From Vibrio tritonius (lineage in GTDB: Bacteria > Pseudomonadota > Gammaproteobacteria > Enterobacterales > Vibrionaceae), in assembly GCF_001547935.1 (NCBI RefSeq), contig NZ_AP014635.1:2046001-2110000 (forward strand): 64,000 nt of DNA, written 5' to 3'. A program made the position numbers and the translations under genes. Positions 6,542-41,040 of this stretch are shown here, piece after piece (position 1 is the first letter of the stretch; each line of letters starts with the position of its first letter). The notes under the pieces are model-generated. The model ran no database searches. It was not told where the DNA came from and was given only the letters and a program-made list of their open reading frames with translations.

Positions 6542-7399
6542 CTAACTTTCCCGCTTACCTTCCCTTCGAATTGATCGTGCAGCAATTAAATCAAACAGCA
6601 CGTTTGAGCTGAGCCAGCGGATAGATAACGTATCGATTTGCGAAGCGTATTTAGGCATAACGCTAAGACCATCGCGTTTTAACTTCGGCACAATGCTGCT
6701 TTGCTGCATGTGGCGTTTTGAGTAACGAACTCGGCGGCGCAAGTAGAGTTTGATGTCCTGCCAGTGCCATGGGTTGAGCGGTTCGTAGTTAAATACGGCG
6801 TCGGTACACACGCCAATATTCTCTAATGGTGTATCTTTGCCACTGCACAAATCGGTGGCGGTAAGAAAGCCCAACATGCTGTCATCCCCTATTAGCCCCG
6901 TAGGTAAACGAACATTGTTCGCCACAATTCGCTGAATATAGGTCGGAGAAAGCAGGTAGAGATTGCCGGTAAATTGATGCTCACGCAGCAGCGTACTGCG
7001 CCACGCTTGCGCGCTACGCCCTTTAAGACAAGGGAAACTAGACACCGCCAAAAAGTGCGGATTGTTTAAGTGGTAATCCACCAGTTGAGCGATAGCCAAT
7101 TCGGCAAAAGTCAGGTCGCCATCGGCAAACACCGCAATTGACTCGCCATCATAATATTGATGAACGAAGGTGTTCCACGCGTTGGATTTATCCCCCAGAG
7201 TAATTTCAATCGGATAAACATTGAGGTATCGCTTGGCAAATTCACTAACAACGCTAAGGGTGTGATCACGACAGCCATTGATCATCACATAAACCTGCAC
7301 GGGATACTCGCCGCAACAGGTCAATAAACTGTTGAGCGAATCGGCAATGGTCGACTGCAAATTGTACGCAAATACACAAATTTGAATATTAGGCTTCAT
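6542..7399 (-). CDS. Family 2 glycosyltransferase
   Basis: The 285-residue protein starts with the GT-A nucleotide-binding strand (IQICVFAYNLQSTIADSLNSLL) and carries the metal-binding DxD-like motif in VFADGDLTF. It should transfer a sugar from an NDP-sugar to a lipid-linked or glycan acceptor at the cytoplasmic face. Its ATG overlaps the stop of the O-ligase gene (ATGA), so the two are translationally coupled. It is the last gene of the minus-strand glycan cluster. No membrane segment is evident. Donor and linkage cannot be inferred. Confidence 0.85.
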   Translation of the reverse strand: MKPNIQICVFAYNLQSTIADSLNSLLTCCGEYPVQVYVMINGCRDHTLSVVSEFAKRYLNVYPIEITLGDKSNAWNTFVHQYYDGESIAVFADGDLTFAELAIAQLVDYHLNNPHFLAVSSFPCLKGRSAQAWRSTLLREHQFTGNLYLLSPTYIQRIVANNVRLPTGLIGDDSMLGFLTATDLCSGKDTPLENIGVCTDAVFNYEPLNPWHWQDIKLYLRRRVRYSKRHMQQSSIVPKLKRDGLSVMPKYASQIDTLSIRWLSSNVLFDLIAARSIRREGKRES

Positions 7400-8742
7400 G
7401 ATGCCCCCCCATTAGCCACTAACACCGATTGATTCTTTGCTCGGGGGGATTTTTTCTCATTGGCAACGCTTCGCTTCATTACTTGGTCAAGGCACACCAC
7501 CATCGCCAAAATCGCGTAAAACATTTCCAAGTAAGCAAGAGAAAGCGCAGCTCCCGATACACAGTAAGCCATGAGTGAGATTTTTGTCATACCCGCCAGT
7601 AAGCAAGGCCAACTTTCTTTACCCTCATGCCTTCGAAAATAACGTTCAATGGATGAGAGACGGATAAATGTCAAAGAGATAAAAAGCAAAAACCAAAATA
7701 GCCCCAGAAATCCTTGGTCACCTAACACTTGGAAGTAGATACTATGAGCGGCCCACCCCTTATCACCCGGCGGAGGGGTAGGAATAAAATCGAACTTATC
7801 AATATCCACGGCCAATATCCGCCACATGTAACTCACCTGTGGGCCTTTAAATCCCCCGCCAATGAGCGGACGCTCAAGGGCCATTAAGGTATGAATTTTC
7901 CACGAATTGATTCGAGTGGTAAACGAGGCACTTGCCATGGCATTGTCGATGGATGCCATTCGGTTGTACCAACTCTGTGGCAAAAAGCTATATGCTAGAA
8001 TCGCAGCAAAAACGAGAATAAAGACAGTGCGGAGTTTATGACGACTTTTGAGCCAGAAGTACCCCAAAATAATGATTAGCCCAATCAAGCCGCCACGAGA
8101 GAAAGTGCCCGTTACCGCAAGGATACACATGATCAACATCAGGCGGAGACCAAACTTAATGAGCTTCTCTTTGGTTTCCCCAATGAGATAAATAATAAAT
8201 GGGATGGTCATACACATGGCCACCGCCATATGGTTGTTATCAGATAGAATATTACCAGAAGGACCTTTAATTCTATGTCCACCAGCAGAGGCAATAAATT
8301 TTAAGCCTTCGACAAACCCCATAAAACCTATCGAAAGAACAATCATCCACAAGAATAAACGAAAGTGGTGCCTATCTCTTAATATTAAACTAATAAATAC
8401 AAACAGTAGAATTGCCTTAAAAAATTCCGACAAATCTGTTTTAACCATAACATCCGGTGCCATTGCAAAGATGCTTGTTATACAAGTATGAATAAAAAAC
8501 AAGATAACAAATATAAAAATGGGATTGACTTTAAATTTAGACTTATGAGTAGAAAAGATAAACCCAATAATGGTTACTGCAGCAAACACACTGTTATAAC
8601 TAATATGTGAGGCAAAACCATATAACCAGTGTACTGGCACAAATAATCCGCTCCACAGCCATAAACAAACCGCAATATAGGGCCGGCGTAAAGCAAACAC
8701 GAGCAATATCAGAAAAGCGGAGAAAAAAACCAGATCACGCAT
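7396..8742 (-). CDS. Exosortase-A-associated O-antigen ligase/polymerase-like membrane protein
   Basis: The 448-residue protein has about ten or more hydrophobic segments and a large periplasmic loop after residue ~270, the plan of the Wzy/WaaL (PF04932) superfamily. The N-terminus (MRDLVFFSAFLILLVFALRRP, then SHISYNSVFAAVTIIGFIFS) resembles the putative O-glycosylation ligase subfamily found with exosortase A systems (TIGR03097, from memory). It would polymerise polysaccharide units or ligate glycan to a carrier at the periplasmic face. It begins directly after the stop of the 31-codon gene upstream and overlaps the downstream GT2 gene. The subfamily assignment is by eye. Confidence 0.82.
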   Translation of the reverse strand: MRDLVFFSAFLILLVFALRRPYIAVCLWLWSGLFVPVHWLYGFASHISYNSVFAAVTIIGFIFSTHKSKFKVNPIFIFVILFFIHTCITSIFAMAPDVMVKTDLSEFFKAILLFVFISLILRDRHHFRLFLWMIVLSIGFMGFVEGLKFIASAGGHRIKGPSGNILSDNNHMAVAMCMTIPFIIYLIGETKEKLIKFGLRLMLIMCILAVTGTFSRGGLIGLIIILGYFWLKSRHKLRTVFILVFAAILAYSFLPQSWYNRMASIDNAMASASFTTRINSWKIHTLMALERPLIGGGFKGPQVSYMWRILAVDIDKFDFIPTPPPGDKGWAAHSIYFQVLGDQGFLGLFWFLLFISLTFIRLSSIERYFRRHEGKESWPCLLAGMTKISLMAYCVSGAALSLAYLEMFYAILAMVVCLDQVMKRSVANEKKSPRAKNQSVLVANGGAS

Positions 8743-8838
8743 TTATTCGCCCTTGCTCTGCTTATCAACATCAAGTGACTGTTTGACAATATAAATAAGC
8801 AGGCCCAAACACCCCGTAAAAAGTAACCCTTCAATCAC
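8743..8838 (-). CDS. 31-residue single-span membrane peptide (translationally coupled)
   Basis: This small frame starts with GTG at 8838, overlapping the stop of the GT4 gene as GTGA. It ends with TAA at 8743-8745, directly abutting the ATG of the O-ligase gene (TAAATG). The product begins MIEGLLFTGCLGLLIYIVKQ and continues with a charged tail rich in Asp, Lys and Gln. That gives one hydrophobic helix of about 15 residues followed by a polar end. Exact tiling between two operon genes and the membrane-peptide composition support translation. No homologue comes to mind. It may be an accessory subunit of the ligase/polymerase (inference). Confidence 0.6.
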   Translation of the reverse strand: MIEGLLFTGCLGLLIYIVKQSLDVDKQSKGE

Positions 8839-9968
8839 TGTGCTTGCCTCTCTAGGTATAGGGCTTGGTATGCCGCTACCATATCGCGCTGGCTAAAGTT
8901 CTGCTCGATTTGCTGACGCGCTTTTTGCCCCATGGTTTCACGTAGCTGTTGAGAGCTGTACAGCTTGATCAGCCCGTTCACGTAGCCGTCATGATCACCA
9001 CTGGCGACCGCTAGTCCCGTCTCATTGTCTATAATCACTTCACCAATCCCCCCTACTTTGGTCACCAAATGGGGAATCGACATCGACATTGATTCGATCA
9101 AAGTCATCGGGATACCTTCCGCAAAGGATGACATAAGAAAAACATCAAACTCTTTATAATAATCAATTACTTCTGTTTTAGAACCGGTAAAAAACACTCG
9201 TTCTTTCAACCAGTAATCACCACGAACAAAGCCCTCTAACTGCGTTTTGTCTGGTCCATCCCCCACAATCAACAAGACACTATCCTGAGCAAAATCTCTG
9301 TTTTTTTCACACGCATCGCGAAATGCTTCGAGCAAAAAGGGTTGGTTTTTTATCTGATGTAACCGCGCCACATGCCCAAACACACATTTGTTGTGGCAAA
9401 AGGGTAAATGATGTTGGGCATCGCTCGTAGATTTCACGTAATGCTGGGTATCTACCCCATTGATAATCAGTGACACTTTGTTCTGCGGAACCCCTACCTC
9501 ATCGATCAGCCATTGGTGCAAATCGGCAGACACTGCCACCATATGATGAATAACATGACTGGAAAGGCGTCTTAACCAACGGTATTTTTTCACTGTACCA
9601 TTTGGGTCATAGCTATCACGGCCATGCTCTGCATGAATTCGCTGTGGCACTCGAGCTAACCAAGCCACCCACTGGTATTCAATTGTGCCTAAATTATACG
9701 TATGGATCACATCTGGATGTAATTTATTAAGTAATTTGTAAAGTTTAAAATAGACAGCAATATCATTCCCTTCTTTTTTATTTAAAGAAAAACACTCTAT
9801 TGGAATATCTATCTCAGAATAAAAATCACCTATTTTTGTCAATGAGACAATTACATGACAAAAATTATCACTTTTGAGATTATTTATACAATTTACGATA
9901 ATCCTTTCCAAGCCACCCACATCGAAACTATATACTAGATGGCAAATACATATTTTTTTCTTAGCCAT
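8835..9968 (-). CDS. Family 4 glycosyltransferase (GT-B fold)
   Basis: The 377-residue protein has the two Rossmann domains of the GT4 family. The N-terminal acceptor domain starts YSFDVGGLERIIVN, a typical GGLExxV motif. The C-terminal donor domain has VFGHVARLHQIKNQPFLLEAF, the E-x7-E type signature in FLMSSFAEGIPMTLIESMSMSIPHL and the closing GGIGEVI motif. It transfers a sugar from a nucleotide sugar with retention in building the polysaccharide repeat. It is the first gene of the short minus-strand unit GT4, 31-aa peptide, O-ligase, GT2, divergent from hddA across an AT-rich 153-bp promoter gap. Confidence 0.9.
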   Translation of the reverse strand: MAKKKICICHLVYSFDVGGLERIIVNCINNLKSDNFCHVIVSLTKIGDFYSEIDIPIECFSLNKKEGNDIAVYFKLYKLLNKLHPDVIHTYNLGTIEYQWVAWLARVPQRIHAEHGRDSYDPNGTVKKYRWLRRLSSHVIHHMVAVSADLHQWLIDEVGVPQNKVSLIINGVDTQHYVKSTSDAQHHLPFCHNKCVFGHVARLHQIKNQPFLLEAFRDACEKNRDFAQDSVLLIVGDGPDKTQLEGFVRGDYWLKERVFFTGSKTEVIDYYKEFDVFLMSSFAEGIPMTLIESMSMSIPHLVTKVGGIGEVIIDNETGLAVASGDHDGYVNGLIKLYSSQQLRETMGQKARQQIEQNFSQRDMVAAYQALYLERQAQ

Positions 9969-10121
9969 AGTGTGATTATAAAATTAACAATAAGAACCTT
10001 ATCAAAATAAGGTTTGAATAAGATTACTTTAATTCAATTATCTCTATAGTAGAAATGAAATTTGTATTTTTTCAATCGAATAAAATAATTTTTCAATAGA
10101 CTGTGAAAAAGGTGTGTCAAT

Positions 10122-11150
10122 ATGATTGTTAGATCGCGATCTCCTCTACGTCTTGGATTGGCTGGCGGCGGAACCGACATTTCGCCTTATTGTGATACCT
10201 ATGGTGGCTCTGTATTAAACGCAACCATAGATATGTACGCCAACTGCACCATTGAGCTGGTTCCTGAACACGACGGAATTACCTTTATCGCGCAAGATAT
10301 CCATCAGCAATATCACACACCTTTAGCGGCACGCATTCCACTGTCTGGGGAATTACTACTGCATAAAGCCGTCTATAACCGAATCGTACGAGACTTTAAC
10401 GACAATCAACCGATTGCCATGAAACTTTACACGTTTTCTGATGCACCTCCCGGCTGTGGCTTAGGTTCATCGTCAACCATGGTGGTCACTATTCTTAGTG
10501 CCTTTAAAGAGTTACTGAAACTTCCTCTCAGTGAATATGATGTAGCGAAAATGGCGTATGACATTGAAAGAATTGATTGCGGCTTTTCAGGCGGTAAGCA
10601 AGACCAATACGCGACCACCTTTGGCGGTTTCAATTATATGGAGTTTTATGAATGTGACCGCGTTATTGTCAACCCACTTCGAATTCGAGATAGCATCATC
10701 AATGAATTAGAAAGTCAGATGGTTTTATATTTCACTGGTGTTTCTCGCTCTTCTGCGAAGATCATTGATGAACAAATTAAAGAGACTCAATCTCCCCACA
10801 GCGCTTCGCTAGAAGCAATGCACCAAGTAAAGCACCTATCGTATGCGATGAAAGAGTGTTTATTGAAATCGGATATTGATGGTATGTCATCACTTTTCAA
10901 AGAAGCATGGCTAGCAAAAAAAGGCATGTCGAGCTCCATCTCAACAGCCAGTATTGATGAAATAGAAGACCGCGTACTAACAGCTGGCGCAAAATCAATG
11001 AAGATCACAGGGGCTGGTGGTGGTGGCTTTATGATGCTGTTTGTTGACCCGATTCATCGCCTTGAAGTTGAGCACACCCTGAAAACATTAGATGGTCGAA
11101 TTCAGCCATTCCATTTCACTCAGCAAGGCACACAATCATGGACGGTGTAA
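10122..11150 (+). CDS. hddA: GHMP-family sugar kinase, D-glycero-D-manno-heptose 7-phosphate kinase-like
   Basis: The 342-residue protein has the three GHMP kinase motifs: the N-terminal PLRLGLAGGGTDISPY, the ATP loop PPGCGLGSSSTMVV near residue 110 and the C-terminal ITGAGGGGFMMLF. Its closest named relatives phosphorylate heptose 7-phosphate at C1 on the route to GDP-D-glycero-alpha-D-manno-heptose, used in capsules, S-layer glycans and O-antigens. A matching nucleotidyltransferase gene follows 46 bp downstream, which strengthens the heptose reading. The isomerase and phosphatase for the pathway are not in the window. L-fucose kinase-like activity is the alternative. Confidence 0.8.
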   Translation: MIVRSRSPLRLGLAGGGTDISPYCDTYGGSVLNATIDMYANCTIELVPEHDGITFIAQDIHQQYHTPLAARIPLSGELLLHKAVYNRIVRDFNDNQPIAMKLYTFSDAPPGCGLGSSSTMVVTILSAFKELLKLPLSEYDVAKMAYDIERIDCGFSGGKQDQYATTFGGFNYMEFYECDRVIVNPLRIRDSIINELESQMVLYFTGVSRSSAKIIDEQIKETQSPHSASLEAMHQVKHLSYAMKECLLKSDIDGMSSLFKEAWLAKKGMSSSISTASIDEIEDRVLTAGAKSMKITGAGGGGFMMLFVDPIHRLEVEHTLKTLDGRIQPFHFTQQGTQSWTV

Positions 11151-11196
11151 TCCACTCAGTTGTTCAATGGGTTAACCATTTAACGGGAGGCGTTTA

Positions 11197-11952
11197 ATGG
11201 TTTCATCACATACTGCCACAGCCATTATTTTGTGTGGCGGCATGGGAACTCGCCTGCACGCCATCACCAAAGATCAAACCGCTAAACCTATGGTCGAAGT
11301 GGCTGGCAGGCCGTTTTTGCAATATTTACTCGATTATTTAATTCAGCAAGGGATATCTCAGGTCGTTCTTGCCGTAGGACATCACAAATACATCATCATG
11401 GATTACTTTGGTGAACGATACGAGTCTCTTACCATTCGCTATTCAATCGAAACCAACCCTTTAGGTACGGGCGGCGCCTTAAAACAAGCTATGCAAAATC
11501 CAGCAGTGCAGCAGTCTGAATTGGCATTAGTGCTAAATGGCGATAGTTTTATTGGTTTCGATTTGCAAGATATGATTAAACAACTGACGCAACATAATGC
11601 TGATTTAGTAATGGCACTCCGGGAGATGGACAATACAGGTCGGTATGGCCGTGTCACCGTAGACCGTAATAGCAAACTCACCGCTTTTGAAGAAAAAAAA
11701 GGTGGCCAACCGGGTACTATCAATAGTGGTGTGTATCTTATGCGCACTTCTCTACGCGAACGCTTTCCCGTTCAACCTAGTTTCTCATTTGAAACCGACT
11801 TTCTCGAAGTTCAAATCAGGAAAGCCGCTTTTTATGGATACCTTAGTGGCAGCTATTTTATTGATATAGGAACACCAAGCGATTATAAACAAGCTCAAAC
11901 CGACTTTGTGAACAAGATAAACACGCAGCAAACATGCCCCACGCTCACTTAG
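11197..11952 (+). CDS. hddC: Sugar-1-phosphate nucleotidyltransferase, HddC-like
   Basis: The 251-residue protein has the NTP_transferase signature AIILCGGMGTRLHAITKDQTAKPMVEV split by the usual spacing, the substrate-site GTGGALKQA and the metal-site Asp in LNGDSF. It should make NDP-activated sugar, and next to the kinase GDP-D-glycero-D-manno-heptose is the likely product. The ATG at 11197 lies after GGGAGG, a strong ribosome binding site. Its last 8 bases overlap the 3' end of the convergent pyruvyltransferase-like gene. UDP or dTDP specificity cannot be excluded by eye. Confidence 0.8.
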   Translation: MVSSHTATAIILCGGMGTRLHAITKDQTAKPMVEVAGRPFLQYLLDYLIQQGISQVVLAVGHHKYIIMDYFGERYESLTIRYSIETNPLGTGGALKQAMQNPAVQQSELALVLNGDSFIGFDLQDMIKQLTQHNADLVMALREMDNTGRYGRVTVDRNSKLTAFEEKKGGQPGTINSGVYLMRTSLRERFPVQPSFSFETDFLEVQIRKAAFYGYLSGSYFIDIGTPSDYKQAQTDFVNKINTQQTCPTLT

Positions 11953-12805
11953 TCACACTTGAAAAAAAGCTCTCATAACAATCGGTCACACGCCCGAGAT
12001 TACTTTTAAACACAGCATCTGTGCTAAGTTGTGGCTTGCCATGTTTGATGATTTTCTTCAGTTGTAAACGCACGTTTTTTTCTTTTACACTCGTAATAAG
12101 ACGTTTGCTTATACGATGATCTGAAGATGGCCACAAGCTCATCAACTTCGTTGGTTGGTATTCAAGGCCAATGGTACTGCACCAATCATTCCATTTAAAC
12201 GTATTGATCTTTTCTGCACTGCTCACCGCAATCCAAGGAATGCGCAGCGCGTCTGCAACAATAGCACCATGCATCGCTTCTACCATTACCCACTGGCAGG
12301 AGAGTAAATCGTCCATCACTTCTTGGTATGACCGTCGTGGGTCAATGTACTTAAGTCCTAAATCTTGGCACACACGCTCCCAAAGCCGGTTAGCAACCCC
12401 ATGATGCGGCACATACCCCACTCTGCCTTCAGTCACGTTATAAATGTTGTCTTTATTCGCAAGAAGAATCGCGGGATCGGTCATCACCTGATGACTCTCT
12501 AACCCTAGCTTTTTAGCCGTTAAATGCCCTCGAACGAATTTGACATCCCATTTTTCATTGATCAACGCAGGTTGCCCATACCCATACCCCGCGCCCAATA
12601 CGATTTTTTTCCCTCGCGCAGGAACGAGCTCGTTCAAAATGGTACCAATGGCAACCACAAGGGTGTCGTTCTCACTAACGTCATATTGTCTATCAACATT
12701 GAGAAAAACATTGCCCTGAAATTGGTTTCCGAGACGATGTTGAATCAAGACTTCATTTAAATCATCTCCGAAATTCCCCGGAGACACTCGATATATTTTG
12801 ACCAT
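11945..12805 (-). CDS. Polysaccharide pyruvyl transferase family protein
   Basis: The 286-residue protein matches the short form of the polysaccharide pyruvyl transferase family (PF04230). It has an N-terminal NFGDDLNEVLI motif, a central VVAIGTIL strand, the RVGYVPHHG region and MVEAMHGAIVADALRIPWIAV, which carries the His of the conserved MHG motif. Enzymes of this family add pyruvate ketals from PEP to exopolysaccharide sugars, and some members are glycosyltransferase-like. It is the last gene of the long minus-strand operon that starts at the FemAB-like gene, and it converges on hddC with an 8-bp overlap. Confidence 0.85.
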   Translation of the reverse strand: MVKIYRVSPGNFGDDLNEVLIQHRLGNQFQGNVFLNVDRQYDVSENDTLVVAIGTILNELVPARGKKIVLGAGYGYGQPALINEKWDVKFVRGHLTAKKLGLESHQVMTDPAILLANKDNIYNVTEGRVGYVPHHGVANRLWERVCQDLGLKYIDPRRSYQEVMDDLLSCQWVMVEAMHGAIVADALRIPWIAVSSAEKINTFKWNDWCSTIGLEYQPTKLMSLWPSSDHRISKRLITSVKEKNVRLQLKKIIKHGKPQLSTDAVFKSNLGRVTDCYESFFSSVTK

Positions 12806-12841
12806 GCTAAATACCTATTCTGCCAAGACAATCATGGTTGG

Positions 12842-14323
12842 TTAAGACTGCACGCGATGCTGAAACGCTATCAACATCGGGCGAATGAACGTTTTATATA
12901 AGAAGTCATACTCATCACTAAATGGCTTAACATAATAGATGAGCAGCAAAGTCGAGCCACAATACACCAGCGCTCCTCCCACAATATTGATAGCCAAATT
13001 AACTAACACAATAGAGCTGATAGTGAATGATTGGGCTAGAGACAAAACCAGCAGCATGCAAGATGAACTCAATAAAATCGGCGTCAATAACAGCACCGTT
13101 TTAAACAAGGAAAGCGCCATGATACGGTTCAATACCCAAAATAAGATGAGTAGCATTAAATAGGCAATGTACATACGGTAGAAGGCAAAATCGTAAAGAT
13201 TGACCGACGATATCGCGACAATAATAATGAGAAAAACAATGGACGTAACTGCTTCATAGTAAAACTGCTTTTTCACTTCGCCCAACAAAGTAAACACATC
13301 GGTGAGTACCCCAACTAACATCCCAGAAAAGGTCATAACCAAAAAGGCTTGAAATAGAGGAATGGCCTCAACCCATTGTGGACCAAATACCGCGGGAACA
13401 ATACTATCCGCTAGGTAGCTTCCACCAAATACGATTGGCAGATAAAGAGAGCACAACACCACTATCGATTTATAAACCTTATCTAACAGTTGCTTCCTAT
13501 CATGCACATAACCAGAAAGACTGGGATAAAGCACCTTGTTGATTGGTGTGATAACAAACTGTTGCGCCGTTACTGAGGCTTCATTCGCAAAGTTATATAA
13601 CCCCAGCTCTGCCACTGAATAGAACTTCGCGATGATGATTTTATCAAAGGCCACTTTGATATAATTGATCACCCCTTTTAACAGCACCCATTTGGAAAAT
13701 TGCCACTGCTCGCCCATGTTGCTCAGAACAAAGGTTAGCTTTCTTCGAACAATGAATTGGCTACCAAGGGAATACAACCCATTGTAAACCAGCGTGCCTA
13801 TCACCACCGCCCAGTAAGTCTGAAAAACAAGCGCAATAACCACCGATGTTGTACTCGATATTGACTTAGTGACGATTTCTAAAATGGAAAGCTGACCATA
13901 ATCCAGATTTTTCACCTTAAGATTGATAGCAGGACTCTGTAAACCAATAAAAATGACGCCTAACGACATAACCTTTAACACTAACGCCATTTCTGGTATC
14001 TGCATGTAGTCTGCCGCGATACCTGAAAACAGAAAAATCAAAATGGCAATGGCGAGGCGTGAGAGAAAGTTAATGGTCCAAGCAGCATTAATATCATGCT
14101 CGGAAATGTCACTTTTACGAATTAAATATTGATTACTTCCAACATTCGCCAGAACATTAAAGAAGCCTTGCACAATATAGCAGCCAGCCAAAATACCAAA
14201 GTCATACTTGCTCAAGTTACGCGCCAAAATAATGATACTGACCGCGGACAGAAAGCGAGAGTACCAAGAAACCAAAAGCAGCAAGAGCGATGCCTTTAAT
14301 ATTTTCTGTGTTATTCCAGCCAT
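12842..14323 (-). CDS. Wzx-type oligosaccharide flippase 1
   Basis: This integral membrane protein of about 490 residues has some twelve to fourteen hydrophobic helices, of the polysaccharide/MOP exporter superfamily (MATE-like). Typical segments are RFLSAVSIIILARNLSKYDFGILAG near the N-terminus and the SVAELGLYNFANEASVTAQQFV repeat in the middle. It should flip lipid-linked glycan units to the periplasmic face. The open frame extends up to 14377, but that would overlap the upstream GT8 gene deeply. The ATG at 14323, just after the GT8 stop, or the ATG at 14347 are better starts. It belongs to the long minus-strand operon. Confidence 0.87.
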   Translation of the reverse strand: MAGITQKILKASLLLLLVSWYSRFLSAVSIIILARNLSKYDFGILAGCYIVQGFFNVLANVGSNQYLIRKSDISEHDINAAWTINFLSRLAIAILIFLFSGIAADYMQIPEMALVLKVMSLGVIFIGLQSPAINLKVKNLDYGQLSILEIVTKSISSTTSVVIALVFQTYWAVVIGTLVYNGLYSLGSQFIVRRKLTFVLSNMGEQWQFSKWVLLKGVINYIKVAFDKIIIAKFYSVAELGLYNFANEASVTAQQFVITPINKVLYPSLSGYVHDRKQLLDKVYKSIVVLCSLYLPIVFGGSYLADSIVPAVFGPQWVEAIPLFQAFLVMTFSGMLVGVLTDVFTLLGEVKKQFYYEAVTSIVFLIIIVAISSVNLYDFAFYRMYIAYLMLLILFWVLNRIMALSLFKTVLLLTPILLSSSCMLLVLSLAQSFTISSIVLVNLAINIVGGALVYCGSTLLLIYYVKPFSDEYDFLYKTFIRPMLIAFQHRVQS

Positions 14324-14330
14324 TCTCGTT

Positions 14331-15236: not shown

Positions 15237-15273
15237 TGTGCTCCCTTCTTCTCTCTATTGCTGTCGCCGATAT

Positions 15274-16284: not shown

Positions 16285-16343
16285 CGTATATCCCCCTTGA
16301 ACGTCGTTCTCCTTGAGAACTTAGTTCTTTATTCTCTTCGAAC

Positions 16344-19075: not shown

Positions 19076-19130
19076 TCGCTTCTCATTTTAAAATTGAACA
19101 TTAGCGGTAAAAACAACCATCACATAAAAC

Positions 19131-20618: not shown

Positions 20619-20648
20619 CTTCGACCATCAGAACCAGAGCACCATTAT

Positions 20649-25945: not shown

Positions 25946-25959
25946 CAAGGATGACTGAA

Positions 25960-27365: not shown

Positions 27366-27427
27366 TCTTTTTACCTTTTCACTATGTCATACGTACTGCC
27401 TGAAGTCTGTTCAACTATCTGGTCAGC

Positions 27428-30315: not shown

Positions 30316-30337
30316 GTTATTATCTTCGTCCTAGATG

Positions 30338-32612: not shown

Positions 32613-33483
32613 ATTTAAGAACAATGACATAAAATCTAGCGCACTCCTACCACAAGCTTCTCTTTTTAAAGTCAGCGTTATAGCCTATTACAATCAAGAA
32701 ATTAGTGGTTTATTTATCAAAAAAATATATTTTTCAATGTGACGATGTTCTTTTTTAATCATTAATAAAAACATGTTACACCACCATTGATACTATAATC
32801 ACACGATACAAAAGGAAAGTTAGCTTAAATTACAACAGGTCAAAGGTAATTATTTGTTCAGTGATATGGGTAAGAACCATTCCAATTAAAAATTTCAATA
32901 TACCCAAATGACTTACCGCTCTGATTCCCACTGACTTTGCTAACGATGGAAAATAGGATCCCAGCGGATGAGTCTGTGTTCAGTATTTGCCCAAAAGACT
33001 CAAGTTTAAAACTGTTATTTAACATTGGTAGCAAAATAAAAATAGCTAATATTTCAAACGTTATTATTGATAGGTGACTTCATTACAATGTATTGCGTTA
33101 TACCCAAATGACCTCAAGATGCAGACTTCAGAGCTTCATCAACGAGCACAGGTCAAGCTCAATGACGGCAGGAATGGTCATTCCCTTTCAACGTCATTGG
33201 GCGCAGAAATGGGCTTGTTGATGAGCTCCCAAGGGGCGAGTTGTATTCGCTCCTATGCTGCGTTACCGATTTTCTACGTAGATTACTAGGTATTCAAATC
33301 GGTGCCTTGCCTATAAGCGAATACATTCTCGCTGAAACCGCATCTTGAGGTTACTTGGGTATATCTTTGCGACCTATTAAAACTAACAAAAACCAATTAT
33401 ACAAAAGCAGATTAGCCGGATGCCTCCCCAAAACATGTAATAGGCCATCACTGCTCACTGTAAACAAAAAGGCACCATTCTTA
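32613..33483. other. 871-bp noncoding stretch between prsK and prsR
   Basis: This gap is made largely of repeats. A block at about 32899-33002 starts tatacccaaatgactta and shares tctgtgttcagtatttgcc with the 34860-34972 element. A 265-bp terminal-inverted-repeat element lies at 33099-33363. The rest is AT-rich. The frame that opens at 33355 inside the element is the upstream extension of prsR and is not a likely start. Confidence 0.6.
33099..33363. repeat. 265-bp MITE-like element with 24-bp terminal inverted repeats
   Basis: The left end tatacccaaatgacctcaag (through atgc) and the right end, whose reverse complement is tatacccaagtaacctcaag (through atgc), match at 22 of 24 bases. Inside are further paired arms: gagcttcatcaac with gttgatgagctc, caatgac with gtcattg, cgag-tattcgct with agcgaata-ctcg, and accgattt with aaatcggt. 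The whole can fold into a branched structure. It has no coding capacity for a transposase. The end sequence recurs at 41041-41094, 41211-41248 and 45159-45204. I recognise it as a common intergenic repeat type in vibrios (memory). Confidence 0.75.
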
Positions 33484-34833
33484 ATGGAAACACTACTTAT
33501 TATTGAAGATGATCGTGGTATCCAGAATCAACTAAAATGGGCATTTGATGACTACACTGTAATTCCAGCCCACGACAGAGACTCGGCATTAATTGCCTTG
33601 CGTCGCTATGAGCCTAAGGTCGTTGCTTTAGATTTAGGTCTTCCTCCAGATCCGGACAATAGCAGTGAGGGATTTAAGATCTTGCAGGAGATTCTATCCA
33701 TAGCGCCAAAAACTAAAATTATTGTCATGACAGGTAACGATGAAAAAGACTCGGCTCACCAAGCGATAAAAATGGGTGCTATTGATTTTCATCACAAACC
33801 TCTCAATGAGTCCGATCTATCCGTCATCATCAATCGGGCTATGTTTATTGCTAATTTAGAGATAGAAAATGAAACACTGAAAAAACACTCGCTCGAACAT
33901 AACGGCTTTATCGGTCACAGTCCAAAGATTCAGCGTGTTTGCGAATTGATTGAACGCATCGCGCCGACTGATGTTAGCACGCTTTTACTGGGCGAAAGCG
34001 GCACGGGTAAAGAAGTACTTGCTCGTTCAATACATGAATCAAGCGATCGTAAAGACCAACCATTTATCGCGATTAACTGTGCCTCAATACCCGAGAACTT
34101 ACTCGAAAGTGAACTGTTTGGTTACGAACGGGGCGCTTTTACTGGTGCAGTAAAGATGACGAAAGGTAAAGTAGAATGCGCCGAAGGTGGCACTCTATTT
34201 TTGGACGAAATTGGCGATATGCCCTTAGCATTGCAAGCCAAAATCTTACGTTTTTTACAAGAAAAAGTTATTACCCGTATTGGCGGTCGACAAGAGATCT
34301 CCGTTAACGTTCGCATTGTCTGCGCAACCCACCAAAATTTGCCAGAGATGGTGACTGAAAAATCATTTCGTGAAGACTTGTTTTATCGTATCAGTGAAAT
34401 GACTATCAATATTCCACCGCTGCGAGAACGTGATGAAGACATCATCTTAATTGCACGTGCTGCGCTACAAAAAAACTGTGAACAAATGGGTAAGCAGATC
34501 AATGGCTTTACTGAAGATGCAATCCAAGCACTGATGCAATATCCATGGCCTGGTAATGTCCGCGAACTACAAAACCGAGTAAAAAGTGCCTGTATTATGG
34601 CCGATGGAAAAAACATTACTGTGCAAGATTTGGCGCTACCCATCACACAAGACACACCAACATTAGACATTAATTTAAAACATGTTCGCGAAGCAGCAGA
34701 GAAACAAGCGATCTGTCGAGCGCTATCAATGAGTGATGGCAACATGTCTAATACTGCTGGACTGCTAGGCATCACTCGGCCCACTTTATATGCGCTACTG
34801 GATAAATTCTCTCTTCGTAAAAAGAGTGAGTAG
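33484..34833 (+). CDS. prsR: PEP-CTERM system sigma-54 response regulator PrsR
   Basis: The 449-residue protein (from METLLIIEDD) has a receiver domain with phospho-acceptor Asp50 and an AAA+ sigma-54 activation domain. The latter has Walker A GESGTGKE (170-177), the sigma-54 contact loop GAFTGA (217-222) and Walker B GGTLFLDEIGD. A Fis-type helix-turn-helix closes the chain (SNTAGLLGITRPTLYALL). This is the PrsR layout of PEP-CTERM loci (TIGR02915). It should activate RpoN promoters such as that at 29316. The frame extends upstream to 33355 inside a repeat element, but length and family start favour 33484. Confidence 0.9.
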   Translation: METLLIIEDDRGIQNQLKWAFDDYTVIPAHDRDSALIALRRYEPKVVALDLGLPPDPDNSSEGFKILQEILSIAPKTKIIVMTGNDEKDSAHQAIKMGAIDFHHKPLNESDLSVIINRAMFIANLEIENETLKKHSLEHNGFIGHSPKIQRVCELIERIAPTDVSTLLLGESGTGKEVLARSIHESSDRKDQPFIAINCASIPENLLESELFGYERGAFTGAVKMTKGKVECAEGGTLFLDEIGDMPLALQAKILRFLQEKVITRIGGRQEISVNVRIVCATHQNLPEMVTEKSFREDLFYRISEMTINIPPLRERDEDIILIARAALQKNCEQMGKQINGFTEDAIQALMQYPWPGNVRELQNRVKSACIMADGKNITVQDLALPITQDTPTLDINLKHVREAAEKQAICRALSMSDGNMSNTAGLLGITRPTLYALLDKFSLRKKSE

Positions 34834-34859
34834 TAAGAGGTGAATAGCTACCAATAATA

Positions 34860-34972: not shown

Positions 34973-35021
34973 ACAACTAGTTAGCGATTTTTTCTGACGA
35001 TTATTAGGGTAAACGGAGGAA

Positions 35022-37385
35022 ATGATGCATCAACACGATAAAGGACGGCTATTGCGGCCTGATGTTTGGTTACAGCGCCTAGTGTCTACACCGCTCATTT
35101 CTCTTGGTGTGATTGGCTTGTTGATCATCATTGCTTCCATTGGCATTAAAGATTTGCAGTTTCGAGGCGATTACAACATCTTCTTCGATAAAGGTAACGA
35201 GCAACTGCTCTCCTTTGAACGCATTCAAGCGGAATTTGCAAAAACCGATAATTTAGCGATTTTGGTGGCACCCGATAATGGCAATGTATTTACTCCCAAG
35301 ATCCTGACTCTCATTCAAGACCTTACTGAAGCCGCATGGCAAACGCCCTACTCTAGCCGAGTCGACTCACTGACCAACTACCAACACACTCAAGCAAATG
35401 CCGACGATATTGTTGTGCATGATTTAGTGGAAAGAGGAATACCTTTCACTGCCAAGACAATTGAAAATATTCGTCAAGTTGCCCTTAATGCACCAGAAAC
35501 ACGCAACGCCATTGTGTCACAAAATGGCGATATCGCTGTAGTTAACATCACAGTACAACTGCCTGAAAAAAATAAAACAGCAGAGATCGCCGAGGTATAT
35601 CAATTTGTCACTCAAACGATTTCTCAGTTAAAAGCGAACTATCCGGACGTGCAGTTTTATCGCGCGGGTTTAGTTGCAATGAATTACGCCTTGATGCAAT
35701 CGGCACAACAAGACATTACTCATTTGGTGCCAGGAATGTTTTTGGTGATTTTAGCTGTATTAGTCATTCTGCTGCGATCTGCTCTGAGTGTGTTTGCCAC
35801 TCTGATTTGTATCATTGCTGCAGTCACTTCCACAGTGGGGCTTGCGGGTTGGTTAGGACAGTCCATCAATGTCGCGACAGTCAATATTCCCACGCTGATC
35901 TTAACCTTATCGGTGGCCGACTGCGTCCATATTATCGCGACGATGCGTCATCAGATGCAATTAGGGCAAGGTAAGTCTGCAGCCATTGTGCATAGCATGA
36001 AGATGGATGTGATGCCTGTTATCATTACATCGGTCACAACCGCAGTTGGCTTTTTTATGATGAATATGTCCGACTCTCCGGTCCTGAGAACTTTCGGTAA
36101 TCTTGCCGCAATTGGCGTACTGATCGCTTGTTTATTTTCGCTTACATTATTACCAGTGTTACTCCAATTGCTGCCGATTAAAATTGGCTCAAGAACCACT
36201 TCACAAAGCACGCTCTTTATCGACAAAATTGCCGACGTCGTTGTGAAATATAAACTTATGCTCCTTATCGCATCCTCAATGGCAATTGTTGGAGGCGCAT
36301 TCTTGATCCCTTCTAACACCATCAATGATGATTCAGTTAAATATTTTAATAAAGGCAATGACTTTCGCCAAGTCGCTGACTTTATGCAGGAACATATTAG
36401 TGGAATGGGAACGATTAGTGTCGTGGTCAACTCAGGACAAGACCAAGGTATTGTTGACCCTGAGTTTCTCAATACGGTTGACGATTTCACAGCATGGTTG
36501 AGACAACAACCAGAGGTCGACCATGTCGCTTCGCTAACTGATATTTTAAAACGCTTGAACAAAAACATGCATGGTGATGATGCCAACTATTATCGCTTAC
36601 CAACAAACCGAGAACTTTCCGCACAATATTTGTTGATGTATGAGATGTCGTTACCTTACGGCTTGGATTTAAATAACCAGATCAACGTGGCGAAATCGGC
36701 GATTAAAGTACAAGTGACCACGGAAAATTTAGGTAGTCAGCAATTCATTGACTTAGAAAAACGCATCAATCTTTGGTTTGAACAACACAATCCTAACAAC
36801 AAAATACACAACATTGCTCAATCAAGCCCTTCACTTATGTTCGCTCATATTGGTGCAAAAAATATGCGTAGCATGCTGATTTCATTACCCATTAGCTTAA
36901 TTATGATCTCTGGATTGCTGGTGTTAGCTCTGCGCTCATTCAAACTTGGTTTGTACAGTATCATTCCAAATATGGCTCCGGCACTGATTGGCTTTGGTCT
37001 ATGGGCTTTAATATCAGGCGAGATTAATTTGGCTTTGTCTGTGGTCGCCTCCCTGACTCTGGGGATTGTGGTAGATGACTGCGTTCATTTCCTCACCAAG
37101 TACCAGTTGGCTCGTAAACAAGGTCAGTCGGCAGAAGACGCAGTCCGCTTTGCATTCCATAATGTCGGGCGGGCACTTTGGATTACGAGCGTCGTATTGA
37201 TCGCTGGATTTTATGTTCTCACTCTGTCGACATTCCGTCTTAATTCAGACATGGGGATATTAAGTACCCTAATCATCTTTTTAGCTCTGGTGATCGATTT
37301 TGTTTTTCTCCCCAGTTGCCTCATGTTTTTTGATAAGAAACCAACGACGAATACTGTTCATGTTGTCAAACCCATACAGAAATAA
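35022..37385 (+). CDS. MMPL/RND-family membrane transporter
   Basis: The 787-residue protein has the duplicated RND plan. There is one helix near residue 30, a periplasmic domain (~50-230) and a block of five or six helices (~235-390). A second isolated helix (~415) precedes a second periplasmic domain (~430-620) and a final helix block. Charged residues in helices (VADCVH and its repeat VVDDCVHFLTKY) resemble the proton relay of MMPL/HpnN-like lipid exporters. Energised by protons, it would lift a lipid or hydrophobic molecule out of the inner membrane. GGAGG precedes the ATG. A LolA-like protein and an outer-membrane barrel follow in the same operon. Confidence 0.88.
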   Translation: MMHQHDKGRLLRPDVWLQRLVSTPLISLGVIGLLIIIASIGIKDLQFRGDYNIFFDKGNEQLLSFERIQAEFAKTDNLAILVAPDNGNVFTPKILTLIQDLTEAAWQTPYSSRVDSLTNYQHTQANADDIVVHDLVERGIPFTAKTIENIRQVALNAPETRNAIVSQNGDIAVVNITVQLPEKNKTAEIAEVYQFVTQTISQLKANYPDVQFYRAGLVAMNYALMQSAQQDITHLVPGMFLVILAVLVILLRSALSVFATLICIIAAVTSTVGLAGWLGQSINVATVNIPTLILTLSVADCVHIIATMRHQMQLGQGKSAAIVHSMKMDVMPVIITSVTTAVGFFMMNMSDSPVLRTFGNLAAIGVLIACLFSLTLLPVLLQLLPIKIGSRTTSQSTLFIDKIADVVVKYKLMLLIASSMAIVGGAFLIPSNTINDDSVKYFNKGNDFRQVADFMQEHISGMGTISVVVNSGQDQGIVDPEFLNTVDDFTAWLRQQPEVDHVASLTDILKRLNKNMHGDDANYYRLPTNRELSAQYLLMYEMSLPYGLDLNNQINVAKSAIKVQVTTENLGSQQFIDLEKRINLWFEQHNPNNKIHNIAQSSPSLMFAHIGAKNMRSMLISLPISLIMISGLLVLALRSFKLGLYSIIPNMAPALIGFGLWALISGEINLALSVVASLTLGIVVDDCVHFLTKYQLARKQGQSAEDAVRFAFHNVGRALWITSVVLIAGFYVLTLSTFRLNSDMGILSTLIIFLALVIDFVFLPSCLMFFDKKPTTNTVHVVKPIQK

Positions 37386-37417
37386 CGGCGCGATACCAGT
37401 GACTAAGGAGTCTTAAA

Positions 37418-38251
37418 ATGAAACCTGTGGACACACCATACTCCACTGCGATTTGGCCTAACAAAGGTTGGGTTACGGCCATTCTATGCACGCTTGCTTT
37501 CTTCAACAGTGTTTGCAATTTCGCTTATGCGTCCAACTCAGATAGAGGGATCGCAATTGCCACCGAACGTAAGGCGCGCGACAAGGGATGGCAAGACAGT
37601 ACTGCCGATGTCGAAATGATTCTGAAGAATGCTCAAGGAGATCAAAGCATTCGAATCATGCGCACAAAGACACTAGAGGTCAACAATGATGGAGATAAAG
37701 GATTAACCATCTTTGATGAACCTAGAGATGTAAAAGGCACCGTATTTCTCTCCCATTCCCACATAAAAGGGAGTGATGACCAATGGCTCTATCTGCCCGC
37801 TTTAAAACGAGTTAAACGGATCGCATCACAAAACAAATCAGGTCCATTTATGGGCAGCGAATTCTCTTATGAAGATTTAAGTTCTTTTGAAATTGGGAAA
37901 TACACCTTTACCTATCTGCGCGATGAATCTGTTAATGGTACGCCTTGCTTTGTCGTCGAACAGATTCCGATTGATCGTCAATCCGGCTACACCAAAATCA
38001 TTGCCTGGATAGATAAAATCGAATATCGCCCAATGAAAACTGAATACTATGATAGAAAAAAGGCGTTATTAAAAACATTAACCCTATCCAACTACCAGAT
38101 GTACTTAGATAAGTACTGGCGCGCTTTAACCCTTGAAATGGTGAATCACCAAACCGGTAAGAGCACCCAACTCATTACTCACAATATTCAATTTAAAACG
38201 GGGTTAGCTGCACGAGACTTTAATCAAAATATTATGACTCGGATGAGATGA
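37418..38251 (+). CDS. LolA-like outer-membrane lipoprotein-sorting protein
   Basis: The 277-residue protein has a signal sequence in its first ~40 residues (hydrophobic ILCTLAFFNSVCNFAYAS). Its beta-sheet pattern matches the LolA-like family (PF17131; COG2834), including DQWLYLPALKRVKRIAS, then GSEFSYEDLSSFEIGKYTFTYL and FVVEQIPIDRQSGYTKI. Proteins of this fold carry acylated molecules through the periplasm. The coupling to an MMPL pump 32 bp upstream and a barrel gene (4-bp ATGA overlap downstream) points to a lipid shuttle between membranes. The cargo is not known. Confidence 0.87.
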   Translation: MKPVDTPYSTAIWPNKGWVTAILCTLAFFNSVCNFAYASNSDRGIAIATERKARDKGWQDSTADVEMILKNAQGDQSIRIMRTKTLEVNNDGDKGLTIFDEPRDVKGTVFLSHSHIKGSDDQWLYLPALKRVKRIASQNKSGPFMGSEFSYEDLSSFEIGKYTFTYLRDESVNGTPCFVVEQIPIDRQSGYTKIIAWIDKIEYRPMKTEYYDRKKALLKTLTLSNYQMYLDKYWRALTLEMVNHQTGKSTQLITHNIQFKTGLAARDFNQNIMTRMR

Positions 38252-39471
38252 AAGCTATGCAACACTGTAAGCTCACATCCGCTATAAAAACCGCTCTCTT
38301 AAGCAGTTCACTTTTTTTTCTCTATCAACCGGTATGGGTTATGGCCACCCCATTACTTCATCCTGATATGAGAGGACAAACTGCCTTAGAATATCGGCAA
38401 TTTTTTCAAACGGGTGTCGATGGGCAACGTAATGGCCAGATCTCGATAGCGATTGAGCCGCAGTTTTACTGGGATATTGGTGATACGCAGTCGAGCATCA
38501 CTTTTACCCCATTTTATCGTTACGATGAAATGGATAGTGAACGAACTCATGGTGATATTCGGGAACTGTTTTATCTCAACTATTGGGGTGATTATGAAAT
38601 TAGAGCTGGCATCAACAAAGTGTTCTGGGGGGTGACAGAGGCGGAGCATTTGGTGGATGTGATAAACCAAATTGATTCCGTTGAAGCAATCGATGGAGAA
38701 GACAAACTAGGACAACCTATGTTGCAGCTCACCTCGATTAAAGATTGGGGGGTTACCGAACTCTATTTGTTACCTTATTTTCGCGAACGGACCTTTGCAG
38801 GCCATAATGGACGACTAAGAACGGTAGTCCCCATAGATACAGACCACGCTCAATTTGAATCCTCTGCTAAGCAGAATCATGTAGATGTTGCCGCGCGTTA
38901 CACCAATACTTTTGGCGATTGGGACCTAGGATTAAGCTATTTACAAGGAACAGATAGAGAGCCCTATTTAATTCCTGCAGGTACAAAAATTATTCCCTAT
39001 TACGCCCAGATGAAACACGCAGGTCTTAGTGTACAAGGCACGAAAGGAAACTGGCTATGGAAACTGGAAGCCAGCTATAAAGATAGCTACCAAACCTATA
39101 CTGCAACCGATATAGGCTTTGAATACACCCTATTTGGTATAGGCGGTTCGAATTATGACTTGGGCCTGTTAAGTGAATATCTCTATGATTCCAGAGGCCC
39201 TGCAACTCTAGCCGTTGGACAAAATGACCTGTTTTCGGCTGTACGTTTATCACTTAATGACGAGGCAAGTACTCAAGTGCTCTTGGGAGTAACCCAAGAT
39301 TTAGACGATAGTGACATCCGTTTATTAAAAATCGAAGCCTCGAAACGTTTAAATAATGCTTTGAAACTTAATCTAGATGCCTGGGTAAGTCATAACCACA
39401 CTCCGACGGACTCGCTCTACTCCATCCGCCGAGACGACTTCGTTAAACTAACGCTTGAATACTACTTTTAA
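38248..39471 (+). CDS. Outer-membrane beta-barrel protein of the MMPL/LolA-like operon
   Basis: The 407-residue protein has a signal peptide (to about MATP, residue 34). A long series of alternating amphipathic strands with aromatic girdles follows, and it ends in LTLEYYF, the terminal Phe typical of BAM-inserted barrels. It lacks TonB-box or plug features. It resembles the DUF1302-like barrels that accompany MMPL pumps and LolA-like proteins. It probably forms the outer-membrane end of an export path. The start overlaps the upstream gene by four bases, and a closer Met (MQH, four codons in) is possible. A PL6-like gene converges 37 bp downstream. Confidence 0.8.
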   Translation: MKAMQHCKLTSAIKTALLSSSLFFLYQPVWVMATPLLHPDMRGQTALEYRQFFQTGVDGQRNGQISIAIEPQFYWDIGDTQSSITFTPFYRYDEMDSERTHGDIRELFYLNYWGDYEIRAGINKVFWGVTEAEHLVDVINQIDSVEAIDGEDKLGQPMLQLTSIKDWGVTELYLLPYFRERTFAGHNGRLRTVVPIDTDHAQFESSAKQNHVDVAARYTNTFGDWDLGLSYLQGTDREPYLIPAGTKIIPYYAQMKHAGLSVQGTKGNWLWKLEASYKDSYQTYTATDIGFEYTLFGIGGSNYDLGLLSEYLYDSRGPATLAVGQNDLFSAVRLSLNDEASTQVLLGVTQDLDDSDIRLLKIEASKRLNNALKLNLDAWVSHNHTPTDSLYSIRRDDFVKLTLEYYF

Positions 39472-39508
39472 ATCTTTCATATGCTGCTTCTCTAAGTGAG
39501 CAGAGCGA

Positions 39509-40984
39509 CTACTTCGTTGGATAAAAACACCCCGAACTATTTTGAAAAGCCCCAACAAACTTCTGCTTATGCGCAATATCGTCACCACAAAAATCTGCAA
39601 CTTTTTCATTATCCTGTAATGGATAAGGAGTGGCACCTTTAGAGAGGTCGATCGCCTGATCAACATAGGTAAAGTTGCCCGTTTCTGGAGAAACAAACAG
39701 ATTATTTAGCGCTTCCTTGTTGGTAAAAAAGCCTCGTGGATAAATTCTATTCCCTGATTGGGAAATGATTTTGGCATCGTCTCGCACCCGTAAGTGACCA
39801 CTAAAAATATTATTGACTATCATCGCACTGCTTTCAGCGAAACGCAGATCGACACCAGTGGTGTTATACAATGTGTTGTTGTTGATAAGCGTATCTCTTC
39901 CTGCATTTAAGTAGATTCCAACATCGCTGCAATGAAAGACAATATTATTACGAATAATGAGCCTATTGGTTTGATAAGTCACACCATCGCGGCTATTTAC
40001 CATTCCCCCGCCACCCGCGGAAATACCGATTGACGAGCCTGCATAGTGCCGTTGCGAAGTATTACACATCACCAAGTTGTCTTCGATGATGCCATTGTTA
40101 GCCCCCCCTTTCATAAAAACACCGTAACTTACCTTATTTCCTCCATTCTTAATAAAATCTCGAATGATATTATGAGAAACAAGCCAACTATTGGCATGGT
40201 CAATATTAATTGGGGTTACTGAGTATTTTGTTTCGCGAGGCTTTGTAGAATAAAAGTGGTTATATAAAACTTTTCCATGATCGGGATACATCCCTGAATT
40301 ACCATTGACTTTTATTGCTGCATTAAAGTCAACAAACTCATTATTTACAATTTGAACATTATTCGCTTCACCTACTATATGGATAGCATGTTCACAAAAG
40401 CTATGATTCGAGCATTGACCTATAAACTTAAACCCAGTCAATGTCCAAAAAGGACGAGAAATATAAAAACCTTCAAGTGATGTCATGAGTAACCTAACTT
40501 TACCCGGATGCTCTGCCTTTAATACAATAGGATTGTATTTTGTTGGTTCATCATTGCTGGTTTCAAATCGTTTGCCTTGCAGAACGTAATCTCCATCAGC
40601 AACCACAATTGTGGTCCCTGGTTTAGCAAAGCGAACTGCATCAATTAATTCATTAGAATTAACGACATAAAAGCTTTTTTTGGGTTCTACACCAACACTT
40701 GGTGGTGATGCATAGTCTGGTCCTACCGTTGGCCATTGTTGTCGGTCAAAGGGCTTCCAGTAATAAACCGGGGTATCTAACATATTGCCAATAGACATAA
40801 AAACATCGCCCACAGAACGTGTCGATGTGTGAGCCGTCAATTTACCCGCAACTTTAAAAAAGACTCCGGGAACAGTTTGGCCGTCAAAAAGCGCATGACT
40901 AAAAGAATAAACTGAGTACAGAAGCCCAACATTTAATACTAAACCGCAAAAAATAAAATACCGTTTGAAGAACTTCAACAGCAT
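39509..40984 (-). CDS. PL6-like polysaccharide lyase, membrane-anchored right-handed beta-helix
   Basis: The protein of about 491 residues has an N-terminal transmembrane or uncleaved signal segment (residues ~5-30). A parallel beta-helix follows, in the style of chondroitinase B/alginate lyase family PL6: repeated N-N-x-x and ISxN turns (VQIVNNEFVDFNAAIKVNG, NGIIEDNLVMCNTS, LIIRNNIVFHC, TLINNNTLYN). Lys and Arg in YSTKPRETKY and GVFMKGG are candidate catalytic residues. It may trim the polysaccharide made by the adjacent cluster during release. AAGGAT lies before the ATG at 40984, which I prefer to the upstream Met codon at 41005. Confidence 0.8.
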   Translation of the reverse strand: MLLKFFKRYFIFCGLVLNVGLLYSVYSFSHALFDGQTVPGVFFKVAGKLTAHTSTRSVGDVFMSIGNMLDTPVYYWKPFDRQQWPTVGPDYASPPSVGVEPKKSFYVVNSNELIDAVRFAKPGTTIVVADGDYVLQGKRFETSNDEPTKYNPIVLKAEHPGKVRLLMTSLEGFYISRPFWTLTGFKFIGQCSNHSFCEHAIHIVGEANNVQIVNNEFVDFNAAIKVNGNSGMYPDHGKVLYNHFYSTKPRETKYSVTPINIDHANSWLVSHNIIRDFIKNGGNKVSYGVFMKGGANNGIIEDNLVMCNTSQRHYAGSSIGISAGGGGMVNSRDGVTYQTNRLIIRNNIVFHCSDVGIYLNAGRDTLINNNTLYNTTGVDLRFAESSAMIVNNIFSGHLRVRDDAKIISQSGNRIYPRGFFTNKEALNNLFVSPETGNFTYVDQAIDLSKGATPYPLQDNEKVADFCGDDIAHKQKFVGAFQNSSGCFYPTK

Positions 40985-41040
40985 AACTTCTATCCTTATA
41001 ATCACCCTTTAAGGGAAAAATAACTGTCTGGCTATATACC

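Follow-up and report, generated by a model that had tools for sequence, protein, structure and literature searches.

The 64 kb window, i.e. the whole stretch of DNA analysed here, carries at 6542..41005 a block of genes that very probably belongs to a complete, conventional exosortase A/PEP-CTERM locus, of which it forms one half; the half with xrtA lies to the left of the window. A search of the whole genome with the exosortase profile PF09721 (E 0.001) returned a single match, at C1:2030361-2031104 on the same contig, and none within the window. The gene concerned (C1:2030322-2031752) is a 476-aa frame that scores 324.7 bits with TIGR03109 (cut-off 208) and is clearly an exosortase A. It lies to the left of the window, its end being 14.2 kb from the window edge and 20.8 kb from the block. 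Since this is the sole match in the genome, an exosortase in an overlooked frame of the window could be ruled out. A sequence-only reading of the window, which had seen no exosortase, was therefore right for the window and wrong for the genome. Its proposal of a sorting enzyme at a second locus came nearer to the truth, yet what it took for a second locus is the other half of this one, at a distance of about 15.7 kb. The exosortase seemed to be missing because the window stops short of it and the two halves are kept apart by other DNA; when a partner appears to be missing from a fixed window, the neighbouring sequence should be searched first.

The surroundings of xrtA are those of an XrtA-type polysaccharide locus. 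Ten further models of the XrtA system matched left of the window, nine of them above cut-off (TIGR03015, 03016, 03007, 03027, 03013, TIGR03006, 03019, 03087 and 03108), while TIGR03018 stayed slightly under it (227.4 versus 230.65). Eleven XrtA proteins were aligned, representing all of the 12 XrtA genomes except G158. AEACSGIR, N218, R221, D241-H242-L243 and Y245-G246-W247 are invariant in this alignment, as are C176, R221 and H242 in 11 of 11 proteins; particular conserved columns are presumably catalytic. A conserved Cys, Arg and His of exosortase are named in PMC1569441. The sequence-only reading had also considered an orphan or rewired system, in which the PEP-CTERM tail has another fate and a matching exosortase is missing. 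A 64 kb window devoid of an exosortase would fit such a system, but exosortase A with its family motif residues is encoded on the same contig, the tail is kept in 8 of 8 relatives' proteins, and PrsK at E 1e-60 was never found without an exosortase among 227 genomes, which leaves this explanation with hardly any likelihood. The locus is of an ordinary kind, and no new sorting fate need be invented.

Profile matches bore out the gene list of the earlier reading, which had placed PrsT, PrsK, PrsR, a PEP-CTERM protein, an O-ligase, an acyltransferase and a glycan cluster at 6.5-41 kb. On the minus strand, the block begins with a family 2 glycosyltransferase (6542..7399; PF00535), whose homologue in G103 abuts the XrtA half directly, followed by an exosortase A system O-ligase-like protein (7396..8742; TIGR03097, 383.3 bits, cut-off 188.1) and an stp2-like, XrtA-type glycosyltransferase (8835..9968; TIGR03088, 385.9 bits, slightly below the cut-off of 409.05). 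HddA/HddC-like genes for a heptose kinase-like and a nucleotidyltransferase-like protein follow on the plus strand (10122..11952), with both best models below cut-off (NF049969, 406 bits versus 600; NF049965, 207.5 bits versus 300). The minus-strand glycan genes at 11945..21755 encode a pyruvyl transferase-like protein, two Wzx-type flippases, GT8-like and GT2-like proteins, an ATP-grasp/LMW phosphatase protein, a GNAT protein and one protein without family (16344-17309), and their order is that of G123 and G103, except for one additional pyruvyl transferase-like match there. The TPR protein PrsT (22193..25072, plus strand; TIGR02917, 519.2 bits, cut-off 312.2) is adjoined by a trypsin-like (HtrA-like) protease and a VanZ-like protein (25163..26358, plus strand; PF13365, PF04892), as it also is in G123, G103, G139, G007 and G226.

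The minus-strand interval 26472..28342 contains a ThiF-type adenylyltransferase (PRK08223; NF006077, 363.2 bits, cut-off 266) and, at 27428..28342, an acyltransferase of the FeeM-type N-acyl amino acid synthases (PF21926, 124.8 bits), for which the sole NCBIfam match at E 0.01 is the N-terminal part of NF011425, far below cut-off. Craig et al. 2011 reportedly linked N-acyl amino acid synthases to PEP-CTERM/exosortase; the feature shared with the present locus is a FeeM-type gene beside a PEP-CTERM gene. All on the plus strand, the PEP-CTERM gene (29377..30315) is followed by the histidine kinase PrsK (30561..32612; TIGR02916, 629.8 bits, cut-off 300) and the sigma-54 response regulator PrsR (33355..34833; TIGR02915, 676.9 bits, cut-off 502.6), the true start of which probably lies downstream of 33355 because the match begins at residue 47. 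PrsK, PrsR and PrsT thus each exceed the cut-off of their model. The remaining genes (35022..41005) encode an MMPL/RND-type transporter, a LolA-like protein and a protein without family (plus strand) and a beta-helix protein (minus strand); all four are also present near the locus in G123, G103, G139, G007 and G066.

The PEP-CTERM protein scores 23.3 bits with PF07589 (cut-off 20.7), one of two proteins above cut-off in the genome, and combines a signal peptide, judged by eye, with the C-terminal tail VPEPGMLSLMGLAFLGLAGLQRRR, as read from the translation, which continues for 11 residues beyond RRR. PF07589 was run at E 10, disregarding matches below its cut-off, after TIGR02595 had given no match in the genome at E 0.001, as was the case for its controls. 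We call the protein PepA-like because of its position, tail and promoter only, its score with the PepA flocculation protein model NF033554 being 41.9 bits versus a cut-off of 80. In the eight relatives' proteins compared, 18-23 of the 23 residues of the sorting tail are conserved, whereas the body is 23-46% identical. Identity of the tail to that of G123, with a dS of 0.24, may partly be due to recent exchange.

The gene for the PepA-like protein is preceded by an intergenic region of 1,034 nt with a -24/-12 sequence pattern of the sigma-54 type (motif 2; 29316..29332) and, upstream of it, a predicted PrsR site (proximal motif 1; 29228..29244), a variant ending in TATACA rather than TTTACA. 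A second motif 1 copy is located 154 nt before the proximal one (29074..29090), and comparable copies 141-154 nt upstream were detected in 6 of 9 pepA-type genes. An additional copy at 28771..28787 (all on the plus strand) is perhaps a relic of a first pepA gene such as in G123 and G103, each of which has two pepA genes as compared to one in the window genome. The pair of motif 1 and motif 2, at a spacing of 71-73 nt, is present in all nine pepA-type genes examined, which come from seven genomes, the PEP-CTERM genes of G006, G078, G158, G161 and G220 not being among them. The first sigma-54 pattern matched six of the nine, a looser scan recovered the other three, with 10, 9 and 9 of 12 consensus positions, and the final single pattern, applied to all nine, allowed C as first base as needed for G226. 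Using patterns composed after the sites had been seen, and in an AT-rich region, the pair occurred once in the window genome and not at all in the backwards control. Motif 2 alone is weak evidence, because a second match is found in the window at 48762 and two or more matches occurred in 5 of 100 shuffles.

From what is known of these protein families, PrsK would sense a signal and phosphorylate PrsR, which would then bind motif 1 upstream of pepA and activate the RpoN promoter. The signal peptide would export PepA, and the PEP-CTERM helix together with the Arg-rich end would hold it in the inner membrane until exosortase A cleaved and transferred it. Making and attaching the glycan would fall to the glycosyltransferases, the flippases and the O-ligase-like protein; PepA may join the XrtA-linked polysaccharide and, once released, enter the secreted matrix.

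The separated halves of the locus were compared with stretches fetched from the other exosortase genomes (11 of 12, all except G158), in which genes cut at stretch borders appear as two pieces. About 15.7 kb including an IS66 element with its transposase lie between the halves in the window genome. In G103, both form one contiguous locus of about 47 kb with less than 60 bp between the flanking tblastn matches; the halves are also together in G139, G066 and G007 and, across contig ends, in G226, where HddA is cut at one end and HddC is near the other. In G123 a gap of about 6 kb intervenes, and in G078, where both halves are on one contig, about 700 kb lie between them. The latter arrangement, and a LysR gene of the intervening DNA that has a 95% identical counterpart in the gap of G123, could mean that the separation did not arise by insertion into an older contiguous locus and that the locus was acquired in two pieces or rearranged. 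The LysR gene does indicate that the intervening DNA is not wholly a recent insert of the window genome. However, G103 has the same gene order with adjacent halves, one intervening gene was not found in 4 of 4 relatives in a search without positive control, and another had only a 45% homologue, located elsewhere, in one of four relatives; we therefore consider this origin improbable.

It is also very unlikely that the half in the window is a remnant in decay, with genes that have been drifting since the separation broke the system. The transposase-bearing DNA between the halves, the single pepA and the leftover motif 1 copy might be taken as signs of decay, but PrsT, PrsK, PrsR, the O-ligase and XrtA are open frames with near end-to-end model matches, promoter pair and sorting tail are kept, and the distant halves in G078 imply that a split need not mean loss of the system. 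Moreover, dN/dS versus G123 is at most 0.27 in all genes for which it was computable, 22 of 31 (PrsT was not in this comparison), values that are rough because dS is below 1 in only 10 of the 31. Identity between G000 and G123 is 73% for XrtA and 98% for the next gene. Co-evolution of XrtA with PepA was considered and set aside: as dS is saturated in XrtA and amounts to 0.2-0.5 from the amidotransferase through GT2, recombined patches fit better than selection.

The distribution of the locus in the genus is patchy. An exosortase was detected in 13 of 227 genomes, in agreement with the earlier remark that such loci are uncommon in vibrios, and PrsK (E 1e-60, at most four candidates scored per genome) in 12, all among these 13. 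In G021 the exosortase is XrtO, next to TIGR02921, and belongs to a different system; it was set apart from the other 12. The suggested comparison of sbcB flanks placed sbcB beside the block in none of the 11 other carriers, and the same block is not found in all Vibrio species. These data support that the locus is non-core; for the genus, the XrtA system is shown to be accessory. Together with a comparable gene set on a Vibrio alfacsensis plasmid, they also favor the earlier idea of an acquired module, and the locus was probably acquired. More tentatively, and with low probability, the XrtA locus of the genus might be a horizontally spread mosaic cassette for surface display, its sorting tail and promoter staying constant and the PepA body that they carry changing fast; if so, related species would display different matrix proteins via the same machinery. 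When genome contigs were scanned with XrtA alone, the 18 stretches obtained included no relative, and an alignment-based scan yielded at least 575 relatives among at least 595 candidate stretches, of which 80 were kept.

The PEP-CTERM/EpsH (exosortase A) system of proteobacteria (PMC1569441) shares with the present locus EpsH/XrtA, PrsK, PrsR, PrsT and EPS genes, a PEP-CTERM operon of one gene preceded by a long intergenic stretch, and sigma-54 motif 2 with a sometimes repeated motif 1 at the described spacing. There is no difference in kind; the distance of about 45 kb between PrsK and xrtA is normal, because Prs genes are near or adjacent to EpsH in 3 of 13 genomes there. The pepA-prsT flocculation system of Aquincola tertiaricarbonis (PMC9850573) likewise has an RpoN-dependent pepA with a -24/-12 motif near prsT. 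In the window, where RpoN dependence is predicted, about 4.3 kb lie between the end of prsT and pepA, and prsT is accompanied by the protease and VanZ-like genes. By its record annotation, V. alfacsensis plasmid pYa108 (NZ_AP024168.1) shares prsT, prsK, prsR, xrtA, the O-ligase, XrtA-type EPS genes and a PEP-CTERM protein; its locus differs in being borne by a plasmid typed non-mobilizable and in gene order, and no FeeM-type gene is annotated in the stretches shown. A study of V. porteresiae from 2025 (PMC12625758) counts PEP-CTERM anchoring with exopolysaccharides among features called unreported in the genus and describes animal-associated vibrios as being without such anchoring. V. alfacsensis plasmids from two fishes carry prsK-type genes, which is at odds with the latter description.

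Family searches of the window recovered PrsT, PrsK, PrsR and an exosortase A O-ligase, all above their curated cut-offs, in agreement with the sequence-only reading, which had named these genes and seen no exosortase. The latter statement held for the 64-kb window, in which none was found with PF09721, but not for the genome: a whole-genome search detected a single PF09721 match, at C1:2030361-2031104 (C1 and C2 denote contigs 1 and 2), whereas the window occupies C1:2046001-2110000. The respective frame, C1:2030322-2031752 (4322-5752 of L003, the stretch left of the window), scores 324.7 bits as exosortase A (cut-off 208); 14.2 kb separate its end from the left edge of the window, and 20.8 kb from the block at window positions 6542-41005, which holds the prs and glycan genes. 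Canonical XrtA polysaccharide genes surround this exosortase frame, i.e. those for the ATPase, outer-membrane protein, chain-length determinant, export protein and sugar transferase, a tyrosine kinase scoring just below its cut-off, and furthermore the deacetylase, FemAB, stp1 and amidotransferase genes. Thus, what the window edge cut apart is a conventional exosortase A/PEP-CTERM/EPS system with other DNA between its halves. By family knowledge, the system would sense, cleave, transfer glycan and act in the matrix in vivo. In the window half, the PEP-CTERM protein (29377-30315) has a signal peptide by eye and the tail VPEPGMLSLMGLAFLGLAGLQRRR followed by 11 more residues, and the acyltransferase (27428-28342) is a FeeM-type N-acyl amino acid synthase adjoining a ThiF-type gene.

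Fetched stretches of relatives were compared with the window genome by tblastn. In relative G103 both halves form one locus of ~47 kb with less than 60 bp between the meeting matches; in G123, the relative with the most similar SbcB (93%), the gap measures ~6 kb. The window genome has ~15.7 kb between the halves (C1:2036861 to 2052542, with its genes at window 1-6267 and L003:10862-20000). This DNA carries an IS66 element and regulators, genes for a MatE-type transporter and an alpha/beta hydrolase, a DHDPS-type gene and a T5orf172 gene, whose DUF4041/T5orf172 product marks the end adjoining the glycan cluster. The DHDPS-type gene gave no match at E 1e-40 in four of four relatives, in a search run without positive control, and the sole homologue of the MatE gene (45%) is located elsewhere, in one of the four. 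One of the intervening genes, a LysR regulator, also resides in the G123 gap, with 95% identity, which disfavours a single recent insertion. The halves are together in G139, G066 and G007, and across contig ends in G226; in G078 they lie ~700 kb apart on the same contig. The separated halves are most simply read as the outcome of stepwise insertion into an older contiguous locus. Between xrtA and the amidotransferase gene, G123 and G103 (stretches L069, L068) have an additional membrane protein gene, which the window genome lacks; by eye, its product resembles an acyltransferase-3 (OafA-like) protein.

Exosortase was present in 13 of 227 genomes of the genus, taken to be Vibrio, and PrsK (E 1e-60) in 12, all among these 13. 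PrsK exceeded the model cut-off in 11 of the 12; the other, G006, yields a 267-aa frame only. There, PrsK lies in pieces (C3:129370-132321), and G006 is possibly a carrier with an inactive sensor. The G158 match contains one stop. The thirteenth genome, G021, has no PrsK match and carries an XrtO system: its exosortase O (TIGR04489, 599.5 bits; L086:5587-9748, a stretch of that genome) adjoins a TIGR02921 protein and cbb3 oxidase genes and is a different exosortase system within the genus. The comparison of sbcB flanks proposed earlier (1.5-kb flanks; E 1e-15, coverage 40%) detected lrgA and lrgB in 40/40 loci and block genes in 0/40; in another survey, 60 of 61 genomes had sbcB, and 30 loci including the window genome's own were fetched. 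In all 11 carriers other than the window genome, sbcB either is located on a different contig or lies 50 kb or more from the locus. A comparable set, xrtA included, is carried by a Vibrio alfacsensis plasmid, and the matches listed for related XrtA include Vibrio salinus, V. hannami, several Photobacterium, Colwellia and Glaciecola (best among those kept, 49% identical). Therefore, the system is an accessory trait of the genus that has probably been exchanged; this supports the suspicion that it is uncommon in vibrios and may be acquired, the transfer itself being our inference. Three plasmid records of fish-associated V. alfacsensis carry prsK-type genes, in conflict with a statement in PMC12625758 that PEP-CTERM anchoring is absent from animal-associated vibrios.

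When the window protein was compared with 8 pepA-type proteins from 6 relatives, 18-23 of the 23 residues from PEP onward matched, and 52/225 to 124/267 in the body. Two PEP-CTERM proteins exceed the Pfam cut-off in its own genome. The second (C2:664577-664630; 22.7 bits, cut-off 20.7) ends in VPEPPTLSLFLIGLLGLYQVRNKLKWRA, without the RRR run.

According to PMC1569441, motif 1 comprises 17 nt with a TTTACA end, repeated in some cases, and precedes the sigma-54 motif 2 by a spacer averaging 62.8 nt (range 32-92), motif 2 lying on average 71 nt before the start codon. At the window pepA, motif 2 (29316-29332) lies 44 nt before the start; 71 nt separate it from the end of a motif 1 variant further upstream, the predicted PrsR site. 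One pair pattern fits nine of nine pepA-type genes from 7 genomes, with a spacing of 71-73 nt (G226 has C instead of the first T in motif 2). It occurs once in the own genome, with 0 in the backwards control and no site at the second PEP-CTERM protein; a sister pattern with TGTCA gave 0. Motif 2 alone matched twice in the window (0.37 expected; two or more in 5/100 shuffles) and is not specific, and motif 1 alone matched three times (0.34 expected; three reached in 0/100 shuffles), always within the 1,034-nt pepA intergenic region; the sites were already known when the patterns were written, and the region is AT-rich. At 6/9 pepA-type genes, the proximal motif 1 is accompanied by another copy 141-154 nt further upstream. 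The window's third copy (28771-28787) may have been left behind by a lost pepA gene, since it lies about as far from the FeeM gene as does, in G123, the motif belonging to the first of its two pepA genes. Aquincola pepA, whose transcription depends on RpoN1 according to PMC9850573, has the same kind of promoter.

Relative to G123, the genes from the amidotransferase through GT2, like the protease and VanZ-like genes, have a dS of 0.2-0.5; in 21 of 31 genes dS is >1 or saturated. For pepA, dS is 0.24 in the tail but saturated in the body. Such a pattern points to recombination inside the locus. Accordingly, we do not attribute the lower XrtA identity with G123 to selection, and recent exchange may account for part of the perfect tail match to one G123 protein. 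Elsewhere in the window, a tRNA cluster (53574-54744) with two Leu(TAA), two Gly(GCC) and Cys genes suggests a tandem duplication.
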